This document shows positions 5,289 through 43,920 of a stretch of 43,920 bases of DNA, piece after piece. The first letter of the stretch is position 1; every line of letters begins with the position of its first letter. The position numbers and the translations under genes are program-made. Below the pieces are notes generated by a model. That model ran no database searches, was not told where the DNA came from, and saw only the letters and a list, made by a program, of their open reading frames with translations. The stretch is from positions 1-43,920 of the IMG/VR virus record IMGVR_UViG_3300025138_008342; one strand, 5' to 3'. The stretch is from a virus.

Positions 5289-8200
5289 ATGGCAACGTCA
5301 TTTAACCTACAAGAATATATTCTTTTCAGAACCGAGATAAAAAGAGAGCTCACTAACTCGGAGGTTGATACCAACTTTAAAATGGTAGCTAACCCGTGGG
5401 AAGACACTAGAATATATGAAATAGGAAACATTGTATATCACCCAGTAATTGTTGATGATCCTTTAACTACAGGAGAAGATCAAGTATTAGCTTGGTGGAG
5501 AGCAAACATTAGAACTACACAAGGTGTATTTAATACTGCACAATGGGATATGATTGGTGGTATAGGCTCTGGTAATATTAACATACAGGGTGCAAATAGT
5601 TTTGGAAAAATTAATGTTAACTCTACTGTTGCACCTGGTTCATTACAGGCAGGGAGTGATGCTGTAGTAACTTCAACAACACCTAATGATACTTTTAATT
5701 TTATTGCAGGGCAAGGTATGCAACTACAATATAATTTAGCATCAAAGTCAATTGTACTTATTAATACTTTAGCCGCTAATCCAGGTGAAGTAAATGTCGG
5801 TGAAAATATTGGAACAGGAACTGGCCATCAGGATGTTTATGCTGGTAAGGTTGGTCTTAATTTACAATTTAATGGATTTCAGTCAACTAATACTGGTGCA
5901 GGTGATGCATTATCTATAAGTACAAATAGTACACAAAAAAATATTGAATATAATTTTAATGAAGGGTTAGTTGATCTTGCTCAATTAAACAGTGGAGCAC
6001 CGTTGATTGGTATGTTATCTAATGTATCTGCAAACACCCCTAATGCACAGGATATTTTACAATGGAATGATAGTAATGCTGCATGGACCCCAATACCGCT
6101 AAGTTCATTAGGGCAGGTAAATATTTATGGTAATGATGGAACAATAGGATCTGCTAACAGATTAGTTTCATTAAATGGAACTGCAGGACAATTACAATTT
6201 AATAGAATTAATGATGTAACTGCTGGTATACATTTTGATAATACTGCAAGTACACACCAATTAAATGTAAGAGCTACATCAGCAACCTCTACTGCTGCAA
6301 TTGCATATTCTTTAAATAGTATAGTAAGAGCAACTGCTGGTATTTATGGAACTGATGATTCCTTTGGTATTAATATAGGAGCTACTGGTTTAGCAGGTTT
6401 GTCTGTAGATGCTTTAAGCATATCTACTAATAATGAACTTTTTATACCTCAGATTGCTACAGATACAGTTACAGCAGCAAGTGTTAATTTTAGAATTCCT
6501 TTTGTTAATGAAGGAACGGTTGTTACTGGAAATACTGCGTTGGATAAAGGTAAGTTTGAATCTACTAATAATTATAGATTATCTTCTTACTCTGACCAGG
6601 GTGGTGCTGTTGATATGGTTAGTATTTTACATGAAGGTGATTATTCATTTAAAGGTGTAAGTCCTTTAGGTGCTACTTTAGCTACATCGTTCTCATTTGA
6701 TAATGAACATGACTTTGCTGCTAATACAAATTTAACAGATGGGTACGGTATACTCATGAGTTATAAAACTCCTACTAATAAAGAAGCTGATACTATTATA
6801 AACCACATGGATAAAACCAGTAGAAGATTTGTTGGTTATAACTTTGCAGCTGTAAATTCTACAATGCCAAGTGGTAGTACTGTAAACAAATACTTAGGTT
6901 CCAATATTACATTAGATGATATGGCTGCTTCTACACCGCCTATTATAAATGTTGGTTCTATTATTAATTTCTCAGATACAACTGCAGGTGCTGGTGTACA
7001 ACCACAGAGAGTCGGTGTATATTCAAATGTAGTGTCAAGTTATACTGGTGCAGGTTCTCAAGATGGAGAACAGGTTTTAACTCAGCTAATTGCTGATAGT
7101 GGATCATGGGCTGGTTATTTTGTAGGTTGTGTTAATATAGATCAAGGTGGATTAGTTCTTCCTTCTACAAGTTTTGCAAACAGACCGTTATGTAATGATG
7201 TTAGTGGTGGAAATGTTTCAGACAGAACATTATGGATTAATTCTGCAAATGGACATTTATACAGAGGAACTGTTGATATTGAAGCAAGTGGAGGTGGAGG
7301 TGGAGGATCTTCTACTTTAGCTGGTTTATCCGATGTAACTCTTGTTGATCCACTTAATGACCAACTCTTAGTATATAATATAACAACAGGTCAATGGGAA
7401 AATGCATCTCTTGCTGCATATAATTTAAATGCTATTAATTTAACAAGTGGAGGTGTAAGTATTCAGTTAAGCGATGGTGCTGCAACTAGTGATGTTGATT
7501 TATTACCTGGTACAAATATTACATTCAGTGTAAATGAAACTACAGACGAAATAACAATTAATGCTGCAAACCCACCACAAGCGATTAACATTGGAAATAC
7601 AGACTTATACATAACAGAGCCTAGAACTTTAGATTTTTATGATTCGCAAAACGCCGCAAATAATCCTCTTACATTTATAGACTCTAATGATAGCTCTAAA
7701 ACTTTATTTAAGTTTGAACAAGTTGATGTAGGAAAAACACCTCAACTTACAATTGGTAGTAGTGCTGCAAATGGAGAAGCTAGATTTATTTTAGCAGGTA
7801 ATGGTACTAATAGAACTGGTGTATTGTATTTTAATAATCCTGATGGAACTACTTATACTTCTTTTAAAGCGCCTAGTACACTTGCAACTAATATTAATTA
7901 TGTTTTACCTACTACAATAGGTACTCAAAATCAAGTTTTAGAAATAATCAGCGTTGCTGGTGGAACTACAGCTGAATTAGGTTGGGCAACCCCTTCTGGT
8001 GGTGGCGGATCTATTGGTGCAACTGGATTTATTGGTGCAACAGGTGTAGGTGCAACTGGATCACAAGGTAATGCAGGTAAGATTGGAGCAACAGGAATTG
8101 GTGAAGAAGGTCCAACTGGTGCAACAGGTGTAGGTGCAACTGGATTTACTGGGTCAACAGGATCTGCAGGTGAACCGGGTAATGAAGGAGCAACTGGAGC

Positions 8201-10280
8201 TATAGGTTTAACAGGAGCAACAGGTGATAGAGGTGGTAAAGGAGATACTGGTGCAAGTGGGTTTACTGGATCAACTGGAGCTACTGGAATTAGTGGTAGT
8301 GGTGGAGCAACTGGTATAACAGGATTCCAAGGTGCAACTGGGGCCGACGGTGCAATTGGTCAACAAGGTGCAACAGGTGGACAAGGTGCTACTGGAGCCG
8401 ACGGTGCAATTGGTCAACAAGGTGCTACTGGAGAAATAGGAAAACAAGGAGCTATTGGTAATCAAGGTGCAACTGGAGCTATAGGTTTACAAGGTGCTAC
8501 TGGAGCCGATGGTGCAATTGGTCAACAAGGTGCTACTGGAGCCGATGGTGCAATTGGTCAACAAGGAGCTACTGGAGATAAAGGAGAAGAAGGCGCTATT
8601 GGTAATCAAGGTGCAACTGGAGCTATAGGTTTACAAGGTGCAACAGGTGGGCAGGGTGCCGATGGTGCTATTGGTCAACAAGGTGCTACTGGAGCCAATG
8701 GTGCAATTGGTCAACAAGGAGCTACTGGAGATAAAGGAGAAGAAGGCGCTATTGGTAATCAAGGTGCAACTGGAGCTATAGGTTTACAAGGTGCAACAGG
8801 TGGACAAGGTGCTGGTGGTGCAATTGGTCAACAAGGTGCAACAGGAGCCGATGGTGCAATTGGTCAACAAGGAGCTACTGGAGATAAAGGAGAAGAAGGC
8901 GCACTTGGTAATCAAGGTGCAACTGGAGCTATAGGTTTACAAGGTGCTACTGGAGCCGATGGTGCAATTGGTCAACAAGGAGCAACAGGAGAAATAGGAA
9001 AACAAGGTGCAATTGGTTTACAAGGAGCTACTGGTGGAGCAGGACCTTCTGGAATAAAGGGTGCAACCGGATCTGCAGGCCCTCAAGGTGGATCAGGTGT
9101 TGGATTTATTGGAGCAACAGGAACTGAAGGTGCAACTGGAGCTATAGGTGATGTTGGTGGATTTACTACAACATATAATGCAGTAGCCGTAAGTTCTTCT
9201 ACATTTGCATTAAAAACAGCAACAACTTCTGGTAGCAGTTGGTTAATAAGTGGTGCTAATCATAGATTCTCTGGCCAAGGTGCAGATCCTTCTTCAGGAA
9301 CAGCATTAGATTATGATGTTACTCAAACCGTATATGCAAACATGAAAGCTTCGCTCATAGGCGGAGATCAGGTATTTTATAGAGTATGGGAATATGGTCA
9401 ACCTGAAAAAGTTAATTTTTATAAATCAAAATCTAGCGCATTAATAGTTACTACTGGTCTAACTGGTGGATTATTTGTTTCTAAAGCACAATATTTAGGT
9501 GGAGCTCAAATAGAATTTTTTAATAAGCCATGTATAGGTTGGGGATTCAATGGTGATGTAGGATTTACTGGCGCAACAGGTGCAGGTACAACTGGTGCCC
9601 AGGGTTCAACTGGATTAGCTGGTGTTGGGTTTATTGGAGCAACAGGAACTGACGGTGCAACTGGAGCTATAGGTGCAACTGGTGCTGGAACTTCTGATGG
9701 ATATATTATTGCTCAATCATCAATAAAGGGTAGAAGTAATGCACCATATACTGCCGGAAGTGGTTATGCCTATGGGTATTCCAACAGTACTTCGGTTCTA
9801 GATCCAGCTAGTTATACTGGAGAAGGAAATCTTTTAGCCACCCAAAATACAACATCATTTAGCATTGCTAAGGTAGGTGCATTTAATCAATTTGGTGTTA
9901 CGAGAAGTAATCAAAGAAAACTGAGGTTAACGGCAAATGCTACACTAATGGCATCTAAATCCGCTCAACCTCTTGTTAATAGAACTCTTCATTGGATAGT
10001 TCTACGAGCTACTGTGCCTGGTGCTAATACACCGTTTACTACAGCAACTTTTGCCACAAGCACAGCTGGAAGTGGTACTCAAACAAATGCACCATTTACA
10101 ATCTCAACCACAAATGGACATAACTTCCAGATAGATGTAGAGTTTGCAACTGTTGCATTTGATAGACATGATTTGGTAGCTGTAGGTGTTGCGTTTAGTC
10201 AGATTTCAGGTGATCTAGATCCAGGAGAATGGAATTGGACAAGTACTTGGAAATTAACTGATGAAGGGATAGCAACATAA
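5289..10280 (+). CDS. Giant tail fibre protein with collagen-like Gly-X-Y region
   Basis: Product of 1663 aa. Residues 1-60 form a probable virion-attachment segment with the TEI...TNF pattern shared with other structural proteins here. Residues about 60-905 are beta-rich, Asn/Thr/Gly-rich fibre shaft with a GGGGGG spacer near 668. Residues about 907-1290 are an almost unbroken Gly-X-Y array dominated by GATG, GAIG and GQQG units, expected to form a trimeric collagen-like helix. A globular insert (about 1290-1420) and a second short Gly-X-Y run (1421-1467) follow. A C-terminal domain (about 1468-1663) then probably binds the receptor or drives trimerisation. The ATG has no Shine-Dalgarno sequence. 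It likely recognises the host surface. Length polymorphism in the repeat is expected. Confidence 0.9.
8574..9032 (+). repeat. 153-bp tandem repeats inside the fibre gene (three units)
   Basis: The segment encoding GDKGEEGA starts at 8574, 8727 and 8880, exactly 153 bases (17 Gly-X-Y triplets) apart, and the sequence between copies is largely conserved. The third unit diverges in its second half, so its end is approximate. Shorter 18-27 base repeats (GAIGQQGAT units) extend upstream to about 8330. The pattern points to recent in-frame duplication. Confidence 0.85.
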
Positions 10281-41141: not shown

Positions 41142-43920
41142 ATGCCAATCACTATACAAGAAATAATAGCATCGGATACTATTTCACAACTGGTAGATAA
41201 AACAAATTTTAATTTTGACCAATTGTTACTTAATGGTGGAGGTCCTGCTGGCCCAGTTGGCCCAATAGGCCCAGTTGGTCCTTCCGGTGGAAGAGGCCCA
41301 AAAGGAACTACATGGTATGAAGATACTGCTACATCTGATCCAGGTACTACACCTACTGCTAACTTTCCAACTGCGACACCGCGAACAAGCGATTACTATT
41401 TACAATTTAATGGGGTTGTATGGGAATATACTGGATTAGCATGGTCTCAAACTACAATTGATTTAAGAGGGCCGCAAGGTATTCAAGGTCCTGGCGGAGG
41501 AATGGGAGATACTTTTGGTTCACCGACAATTGGATTAAAAACTGCTATTTATAATGGAACTATAGGATTAGGTGTTGGTGCGACAAGTGTTAATGAAGGT
41601 GTGCCATCTGTGATGATTGGTGGAGCAGTAACAACTACACAACAACTTACAGGTATTCCATTAACTAATGCTTATGTTATCCCTGACTCGGTTGCTGCTA
41701 ATTTAATATCTAGTACAGCTGCATTATTATTACACCAAAAGGATGCTACAACTAAGGCTATAGTATTTCATGGTGGTGCTGCTAATTCTGGTGATAAGTT
41801 TTACCAAACAGATTTAGCTGGTTTATCCAGCATTAGAATTGGTATAGATGACAAGTTAATTATGGATGTTCCTAAGGCTGCAACATCACCAGCTGCTTTA
41901 GGTGATTTATATGGGTATGAAGTTAATGTACCAGAAAGATCTCAGAATTTTCTTGCAGGTAAAGCAATTAATTTTCAAACAGGTGATAGCAGTGTTGCAT
42001 CAGGTTTTGGTGGAGAAAATTCAGATTTTACAGTTAATGTTGGAACTGGAACATCAGCCGGAGGTAACAAGTTTGTAATAAATACTGCAGGTACTTCAGG
42101 ATCAGGATTAGTACAAATAGGTACAGGGTTTTCAGTAGTAACCGAAACTACAAGAAATGCTACAATACAATTTCAAGGAGGAGAGACAAATTTTGTATCA
42201 TCAGCTAATAAAACAATTCAAATAGCATCAGGTGGTGAAATAAGATTAGATACAACATTAGGATCAAATCCTTCAGGTAAAATTCTTCTTACTTCTGGAG
42301 TAGGTGGAATAACCGCACAGACTAATAATGGTGATATTGTTATAAAACAAGCAGATGCATCTTCATCGGCTACGGCTGACATTAATATTGAAAATTCATC
42401 TACTGCGCCTAATGCTACAGTAGGTGGAGATATTTATATACAATCTAATAGTCAAACAATATTAAAGAAAACTACTGCCACATCTAAAGCTAACAGTAGT
42501 ATAGTTATTGATTATGGATATGATGGAGCTGCTGGGGCTCAACCTCATACAAGATTTGTTGGACAACAAACAATATCACCTGCTGGGTTATCAACTGGTA
42601 CCACACCTCCAATAAGCTTTGGAAATACTATTTATAAAAATCCTACAACTGCACTTGCTTCGTCAAATGCTATATTTGAATTGACAGGAAATAACGGTGT
42701 TGTTGATATGGCACCAGGTGCAATAATGCAAGGGTGGTCAGGTGGAACACAATCAGCTAGCGGTGTAGACGCAGGTTTATTGGTTATAGGATTAGGAAGT
42801 GAAGGCCCACAACAACCTGTACCTGCAGCTAATTATGCATGGGACAATTCATTAGGTTTTGGAGTAAGAAACTCTGGTAATACAGAAGATTATTTTAATG
42901 CAAGTGAAAATAAAATTTCATTTGCAGCACCGTGGGTGTTAAAAAGAGCAAGAGGTTTAAATTCAAGTATTAATTCTGCACCAACATCAACGTATGTACC
43001 AAACGGAACTGCACCTGCCCCTATAAATTATGGTTGGAATACAAGACAAACACTATCACCACAACAAGTTTCACCAAACGGGGTTGTTTCTCTAGGTATG
43101 CCAACAACAGCAGATTTAAATGTTCCATTTATATCTCTTAACTTTGGACCTGGTTTAGGTTATAAGGATTCTTCAACTGGATTACAATTTAACAATCAAG
43201 GTTATAACTATAAAGTTAACTTTCCAACTGGTGCCTACCCTGGACAAAGACTATCAGTCAAAGTGTATGTACAGTCAGTAGGGATTAGGCAAGCTACAAA
43301 ATCAGGATCAGGTAGTGTTTATGAAGCAAATTATGGAACGGTGAATATACAGTTACCGCAATTTAGAATTAAGTCGCCATCTTCAGTTGCTAATTACACT
43401 AGTTGGTACCAAGCTGGTACAACTACTGCAACAAAACCTGGTTTTTCAACTTGGGACGTGTCAACTTCTATTGCTGATGCTGCTGATGGTGTTGGTCGCT
43501 TTAAAGTTTTAGATATGATATGGGATGGTCAATATATTACACAACAAGGTGCAGACGTTGATTCAGCTGATCCAAATTCAATATCTACAACAACACAACA
43601 CGGGTGGGTAGTTACAGGGATATCATTAAATGCAAATGATAATAATTTAGTAACAGTTAGTGGTCCTGATAATTCACCAGGTTGTTTTGTAGCCGGAACT
43701 GAGATAGCTTTAGCAAATGGAGATATAAAAAATATAGAAGATATTTTATCAGGTGAAGAAGTAATAACATGGAATGAATCTACAAAAACAGCAGAAGTTG
43801 GTACAGTAGGTAAATTAAAAATTATAGAAGAAGTAGGTATGATTATTAAATTAACACTTGATAATGGTACTGTACTTAGAACTACAGAGCACCACCCATT
43901 CTATCATAGAGATGGTGAAA
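41142..43920 (+). CDS. Tail fibre-like protein with Hint domain (partial, runs off the window)
   Basis: The frame is open from ATG 41142 to the window end (926 codons). The N terminus TIQEIIASDTISQ...TNFNFDQLL shares the TEI/NFN pattern with the 29676 protein. A short collagen-like GPVGPIGPVGPSGGRGPKG stretch follows (36-54) and a second at about 109-121. Residues about 125-700 are Thr/Ser/Gly-rich repeats with strand spacing expected of a beta-helix shaft (IQFQGGETNF, KTIQIASGGEIRLDT, NGDIVIKQAD). About 700-840 is a globular fibre domain. From Cys848 a Hint domain begins. AAAAGAA precedes the ATG. The gene is likely an adhesin-type fibre whose end is processed or capped by the Hint module. 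Confidence 0.85.
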   Translation, partial: MPITIQEIIASDTISQLVDKTNFNFDQLLLNGGGPAGPVGPIGPVGPSGGRGPKGTTWYEDTATSDPGTTPTANFPTATPRTSDYYLQFNGVVWEYTGLAWSQTTIDLRGPQGIQGPGGGMGDTFGSPTIGLKTAIYNGTIGLGVGATSVNEGVPSVMIGGAVTTTQQLTGIPLTNAYVIPDSVAANLISSTAALLLHQKDATTKAIVFHGGAANSGDKFYQTDLAGLSSIRIGIDDKLIMDVPKAATSPAALGDLYGYEVNVPERSQNFLAGKAINFQTGDSSVASGFGGENSDFTVNVGTGTSAGGNKFVINTAGTSGSGLVQIGTGFSVVTETTRNATIQFQGGETNFVSSANKTIQIASGGEIRLDTTLGSNPSGKILLTSGVGGITAQTNNGDIVIKQADASSSATADINIENSSTAPNATVGGDIYIQSNSQTILKKTTATSKANSSIVIDYGYDGAAGAQPHTRFVGQQTISPAGLSTGTTPPISFGNTIYKNPTTALASSNAIFELTGNNGVVDMAPGAIMQGWSGGTQSASGVDAGLLVIGLGSEGPQQPVPAANYAWDNSLGFGVRNSGNTEDYFNASENKISFAAPWVLKRARGLNSSINSAPTSTYVPNGTAPAPINYGWNTRQTLSPQQVSPNGVVSLGMPTTADLNVPFISLNFGPGLGYKDSSTGLQFNNQGYNYKVNFPTGAYPGQRLSVKVYVQSVGIRQATKSGSGSVYEANYGTVNIQLPQFRIKSPSSVANYTSWYQAGTTTATKPGFSTWDVSTSIADAADGVGRFKVLDMIWDGQYITQQGADVDSADPNSISTTTQHGWVVTGISLNANDNNLVTVSGPDNSPGCFVAGTEIALANGDIKNIEDILSGEEVITWNESTKTAEVGTVGKLKIIEEVGMIIKLTLDNGTVLRTTEHHPFYHRDGE
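43683..43920 (+). other. Start of a Hint (intein/hedgehog-type) self-processing domain
   Basis: Within the partial fibre frame, Cys848 opens the block CFVAGTEIALANGDIKNIEDI, the N-terminal splicing block A of inteins and Hint domains (Cys, then the 'GT.i' and 'I.di' positions). About 65 residues on, LRTTEHHPFYHRDG (residues 912-925) carries the TxxH of block B (T915 and H918, or T914 and H917). The blocks needed to tell intein from Hint (C-terminal His-Asn, any homing endonuclease) lie beyond the window. Confidence 0.78.

Follow-up and report, generated by a model that had tools for sequence, protein, structure and literature searches.

A BIL-like Hint domain at the C-terminus of a collagen-like phage fibre is most likely a self-processing tail and not a normal intein

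The DNA analyzed here, called the window, is a virus record of 43,920 bases (IMGVR_UViG_3300025138_008342), taken whole, which terminates inside a fibre open reading frame. Sequence comparisons indicate that the Hint domain beginning at the end of this frame is most likely a C-terminal self-processing tail, not a normal intein, and that such tails recur in several unrelated phages.

Results

The fibre gene ends within a Hint domain

The fibre ORF (positions 41142..43919, plus strand, as are its features given below) encodes 926 visible residues with no stop codon before the contig end, and its N-terminus is shared with homologues. The collagen-like part announced by the sequence-only reading is real but short: one stretch covers residues 34-57 (41241..41312, beginning GPAGPVGPIGPVGPSGGRGPKG) and a second Gly-X-Y stretch covers residues 110-124 (41469..41513), both below the Pfam Collagen model. 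The fibre is presumably trimeric, an assumption drawn from this part and from the Peptidase_S74 (S74) tail of its relative L003. The region preceding the Hint domain, residues 570-847 (42849..43682), was predicted to be mostly beta (pLDDT 74); a structural search of the predicted model returned no convincing fold match. Within this region lies a Gly-Trp motif (residues 821-822, 43602..43607). Elsewhere in the window, a 1663-aa protein (5289-10280), in which no Hint was found, showed a strong Pfam Collagen match (135 bits) near its C-terminal part.

Of the Hint domain, the window contains the first 79 residues with blocks A and B (43683..43919), the rest being beyond the contig. Block A begins, as had been proposed, at Cys848 (codon TGT, 43683-43685), the predicted nucleophile of an N-S acyl shift, with Gly847-Cys848 as the predicted scissile bond. 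The proposed TxxH block B was located at T915-E-H-H918 (TEHH, 43884..43895) and is present in nearly all relatives. From Cys848 onward the sequence reads CFVAGTEIALANGDIKNIEDILSGEEVITWNE...TTEHHPFYHRDGE.

The intein_Nterm model TIGR01445 (cut-off 24.5) scored 32.1 bits on the 80 C-terminal residues and 25.5 bits on the whole fibre protein. The Pfam models Intein_splicing, Vint, PT-HINT, Hint and Hint_2 aligned at the block A-B region, each below its cut-off, as half a domain would be expected to score; the complete Hints of L003 (30.8) and L008 (29.0) exceeded the PT-HINT cut-off of 27.7. An HMM built from complete relatives, with the window left out, gave 120.5 bits for the window segment, against a maximum of 10.9 bits in 2000 shuffles. 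Both TIGR01445 and the relatives' HMM thus bear out that this collagen-like fibre ends in a Hint.

Complete relatives supply the missing end

The 80-aa Hint stub matched 24 viral loci. The query holds none of the C-terminal residues, so that the relatives found with it are not biased toward any ending. In complete relatives the Hint is approximately 139 aa long and closes with His-Asn, followed by Lys at position +1; the block G His-Asn expected downstream was therefore found in the relatives, the window's own end being beyond the contig. The proteins of L004-L012 and L053 stop within 2-3 residues past His-Asn-Lys (tails of L004-L012: KGGN, KGGL and KAD). In L002 and in L003, the closest relative, HN-Lys is followed by VSDIRLKEN..., the start of an S74-like chaperone with a Ser-Lys dyad. 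The dyad of S74 has the spacing i, i+5 (PMC3742443). The L003 tail, with the dyad in SDIRLK, scored 22.8 bits in Pfam when taken alone (cut-off 22) and 16.1 bits inside the whole protein.

On the fibre tree, L002 and L003 are nearest to the window (support 99/95), and the window fibre probably shares the L003-type end, HN-Lys and then S74. This end is read from relatives because no overlapping contig was found: an exact search of viral contigs for the window's contig end gave no match, and contig L026, which agrees with the window at all 286 residues compared, ends too early to supply it.

Over the part present, the Hint of the window is 86% identical to that of L003, and the adjoining fibre region is 55% identical. 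The dN/dS ratio was about 0.15 in the comparison with L003 and about 0.28 in that with the L004/L008/L011 group; the Hint is under purifying selection. Its GC content is 0.312, below that of the window (0.328) and of the fibre body (0.379). Since 42% of window chunks have a value at or below that of the Hint, base composition gives no signal of a recent horizontal gain.

Active-site residues are conserved among viral Hints

Among 68 non-redundant viral Hints of the same class, Cys1 was present in all; His-Asn was likewise found in 68/68, this motif having been required in trimming the set, yet no full-length domain failed the requirement. By reading, TxxH is kept in all but one of the 68. The +1 residue was Lys in 48 domains, Arg in 13, Phe in 3, Ile in 2, and Tyr and Gly in one each; Cys, Ser or Thr never occurred (0/68). 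The second Hint scan used the pattern VHNK, and bias was checked on 21 domains fitting neither search pattern: Cys1 was present in 21/21, and +1 was Arg (8), Lys (7), Phe (3), Ile (2) or Tyr (1), again with no Cys, Ser or Thr (0/21). The block F Asp and His are partly conserved in relatives, with VYN for VYD and either His or Asn. The natural ends of stand-alone Hints are K, KK, KV and KGGN.

The fold is closest to A-type BIL domains

The family profile, compared with PDB sequences, matched best CthBIL4 (2lwy, E 2.3e-19) and next the Tetrahymena BIL2 structures 6y75/6tmm. For the L003 Hint, the AlphaFold model (pLDDT 92.5) had 2lwy as its top Foldseek match (E 3.1e-11, TM 0.84/0.90, 34% identity). 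Alignment of this model with VIA-align gave Z 23.5 for 6y75 (rmsd 1.4, 142 aligned), Z 22.0 for 2lwy (rmsd 1.2, 134 aligned), Z of at most 21.6 for inteins and Z 20.0 for Hedgehog 1at0, the margins to the BILs being small.

A-type BILs retain His-Asn, have no +1 nucleophile and mainly cleave, with some splicing (PMC7765530, PMC7664689, PMC5874633). Cys1 and TxxH were found in the window, His-Asn and a +1 residue other than Cys, Ser or Thr in complete relatives, and the protein context is variable, most fibre homologues carrying no Hint. Taken together, the match in sequence, the terminal His-Asn and the residue at +1 suggest that the fibre Hint is most likely an A-type BIL-like domain and not a splicing intein.

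The Hint is an add-on to a complete fibre

The fibre family was collected by its N-terminus (59 loci); among its non-redundant rows the end is known for 38, of which 7 have a Hint and 31 do not. In all seven Hint fibres, Cys1 lies exactly 27 residues past the Gly-Trp motif, as it does in the window. Most Hint-less homologues terminate 19-37 residues past Gly-Trp, near the Cys1 position, which argues that the Hint is appended to a fibre already complete and that there is no C-extein to join. A second survey of the fibre, made from its C-terminal region, yielded no further Hint-bearing fibre among the loci as listed.

The Hint of L053 occupies the same spot but is clearly different, being 33% identical to the L003 Hint. 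Parsimony on the fibre tree needs two changes; alternatively, there may have been a single origin with later replacement.

A class 1 splicing intein was rejected: +1 is Lys, not Cys, Ser or Thr, in every complete fibre relative, and no extein is interrupted. As a contrast, loci L023-L025 appear by eye to have enzyme hosts (terminase-like for L025), the last Asn being followed by Cys or Ser.

Similar Hint tails occur in other phages and in bacteria

The sequence-only reading had called a Hint in a phage fibre unusual. One scan found 379 relatives, and Hints at the end or in the interior of phage virion-type proteins are plentiful in viral metagenomes; the arrangement is thus not rare, though it has been little noticed. 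No report of a Hint terminating a phage fibre, or of its study in a phage particle, was found in the open-access literature.

In the unrelated tail-tip proteins of L184 and L186 (over 2000 aa), collagen repeats are followed by a Hint, VHNK, one residue and S74, in the order and register of L003; the S74 start motifs after the Hint are SDVRLK or SDIRLK. In L184, a Phage-tail_3 domain and a match to Collagen are present as well, and its Peptidase_S74 match scores 32.3 bits. Self-removal of S74 cuts before Ser (PMC3742443); the predicted Hint ends after it, in L003 and L184/L186, are HNKV or HNKS. A search for a form in which Hint and S74 are fused through Ser at +1 gave a lone match, L187, a chance match without a Hint.

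Two complete genomes with assigned hosts, those of Erwinia phages pEa_SNUABM_5 and pEa_SNUABM_2, have a collagen-like tail fibre gene with a C-terminal Hint, the pEa_SNUABM_5 protein being QQO90250.1. VHNK-class Hints were found in bacterial genomes as well, notably of Flavobacteriaceae and Nostocales, and some end Rhs-type proteins.

Hints were also seen in other settings. Large marine phages (L013-L021, L137, L162, L172 and others) encode an uncharacterized protein of about 475 aa, starting MKGTLFSADF..LLEINTDT, with 1-3 tandem Hints joined by short linkers and often ending exactly at VHNK; the catalytic residues are intact in each copy. The DUF4815 phage protein of L022 has two tandem Hints and then a further C-terminal region (KVICTALYEMG...). 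In Nostocales and a few other cyanobacteria (L188-L190, L192, L194-L196, L207), small proteins carry a Hint ending VHNKGGGGG, with a Gly-rich stretch after the Hint and, in most, about 240 more residues. Finally, gp4 of Salicola phage SCTP-2 (L179, ASV44019.1) has an intein-like insert within a tail-collar-like motif, GWAL/C...VHN/CDGSNGTPDLTDRF (slashes mark the junctions); with Cys at both junctions, this insert in a virion-type protein does look splice-competent.

The host is probably a marine Bacteroidota

Large Bacteroidota phages (Lak phages, Tenacibaculum pT24, Flavobacterium MaF61) and Sphingomonas phage PAU encode relatives of a neighbouring 1293-aa protein. A Bacteroidota host is therefore likely, probably a marine one. 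The window's large upstream structural protein showed no similarity to the pT24 tail fibre. A PADLOC search gave no match.

Discussion

The sequence-only reading had offered either a true intein or a Hint that cleaves or cross-links the fibre tip. Cleavage is the best fit, as an A-type BIL-like domain, the BIL structures being nearest. We give a probability of about 0.55 to the reading that this domain cuts the Gly847-Cys848 bond and thereby frees itself from the fibre, an activity predicted from the sequence and the model. The fibre would fold first; Cys848 would then attack the Gly847 carbonyl in an N-S acyl shift assisted by Thr915 and His918 of block B. Water or another nucleophile would resolve the thioester, releasing the Hint with all that follows it, either a few residues or, as in L003, the S74 chaperone. 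The mature fibre would end approximately 27 residues past the Gly-Trp motif, near the end of the Hint-less homologues. Asn cyclization at ...VHN/K could also cut on the far side of the Hint. Cleavage, its timing and its role in maturing the fibre are what we infer; the results above establish the class of fold, the residues of the active site, the order of the domains and their distribution.

If shedding were all that the Hint does, there would be no evident reason for proteins that stop directly behind the +1 Lys to keep HN-Lys so strictly, and a second cutter looks redundant in L003 and L184, where S74 can already remove itself. The partly conserved block F Asp and His also speak against this reading, as does the missing fold match for the region preceding the Hint. 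Alternatively, the mature fibre may keep the Hint as its folded tip or cap, the chemistry being weak, silent or triggered only at the host. We regard this as rather unlikely. The ends predicted after S74 removal resemble those of stand-alone Hints, so that the Hint may be the intended terminal domain after assembly, and tandem Hints are known in other phage proteins; the catalytic residues, kept in 68/68 domains, would be unexpected in a purely structural part.

HN-Lys kept in proteins ending with that Lys also leaves room for ligation to Lys or to another amine. It is unlikely that an amine or hydroxyl resolves the Cys848 thioester, so that the fibre end is joined to a neighbouring subunit, to the +1 Lys, to a further virion protein or to the surface of the host as the Hint leaves. 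Hedgehog carries out an analogous transfer to cholesterol, and the other closest structure is BIL2 from the Tetrahymena BUBL1 locus, which is linked to ubiquitin-like ligation. Such a transfer would agree with +1 Lys or Arg in 61/68 domains, though many proteins end there, and some A-type BILs splice by an alternative mechanism, often without a +1 nucleophile (PMC5874633); in 20/68 domains, however, +1 is Arg, Phe, Ile, Tyr or Gly, none of which can serve as a side-chain amine nucleophile. More specifically, the +1-Lys Hints might form a covalent attachment device that passes the fibre thioester to a lysine amine and releases the Hint, in a Hedgehog- or ubiquitin-like ligation, the amine being that of the +1 Lys in cis, of a neighbouring subunit or of a host or virion surface; this we regard as doubtful.

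Very little probability remains for the fibre being interrupted by a true splicing intein, a proposal that the TIGR01445 match and the shared fold would favour and that is mostly refuted. A +1 Lys is incapable of ordinary transesterification, so that efficient intein-type splicing is not expected; no C-extein occurs in 9/11 complete near relatives, no Hint-free homologue continues with one, and an endonuclease insert is absent. The sequence-only reading had also pointed to two other models. The Hedgehog type fails for want of a sterol-recognition region, the relatives ending 2-3 residues past HN-Lys or entering S74. That the domain is a polymorphic-toxin release module, a PT-HINT placed ahead of a toxin, is hardly credible: PT-HINT is above its cut-off in L003 and L008, but the complete relatives carry nothing or only an S74 chaperone past the Hint and no toxin domain, which refutes the idea for them.

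Chaperones that sit at the C-terminus and can be removed, S74 among them, are a known means by which phage fibres mature. A BIL-class Hint at the position of S74, at times accompanied by S74 in an order shared between unrelated phages, points to a second route to finish or modify the fibre tip. A phage fibre is a physically accessible setting for BIL domains, the natural role of which is still debated, and the cultured Erwinia phages with a similar fibre now open the idea to experiment.

Compared with known systems, the phage Hint shares with A-type BILs (2lwy; 6y75/6tmm) the fold, Cys1, TxxH, the terminal His-Asn, a non-nucleophilic +1 residue and a variable protein region; it differs in lying at the extreme C-terminus of a collagen-like fibre, in a +1 that is nearly always Lys or Arg, in the S74 that may follow and in the tandem copies of other phage proteins. 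Class 1 mini-inteins (Ssp DnaB 1mi8, gp41-1 6qaz) have the same Hint fold, blocks A and B and His-Asn end, whereas the phage Hint has no +1 Cys, Ser or Thr and no C-extein to rejoin. The Hedgehog C-terminal domain (1at0) is likewise a C-terminal Hint with a Gly-Cys-Phe start and possibly the same N-terminal cleavage chemistry; unlike it, the phage Hint keeps His-Asn and lacks the sterol-recognition region. The Peptidase_S74 tailspike chaperone is, like the proposed tail, a self-removing C-terminal module of trimeric phage fibres, but it works by a Ser-Lys dyad, is unrelated in fold and chemistry, and follows the Hint in L003 and L184/L186 instead of replacing it. The Erwinia fibres of pEa_SNUABM_5 and pEa_SNUABM_2 resemble the window's in having collagen repeats and then a Hint near the C-terminus; they differ in the +1 Thr and in the approximately 10 residues past HN (VHNTDIVAQAEKT in SNUABM_5), and identity is only 28-29%.
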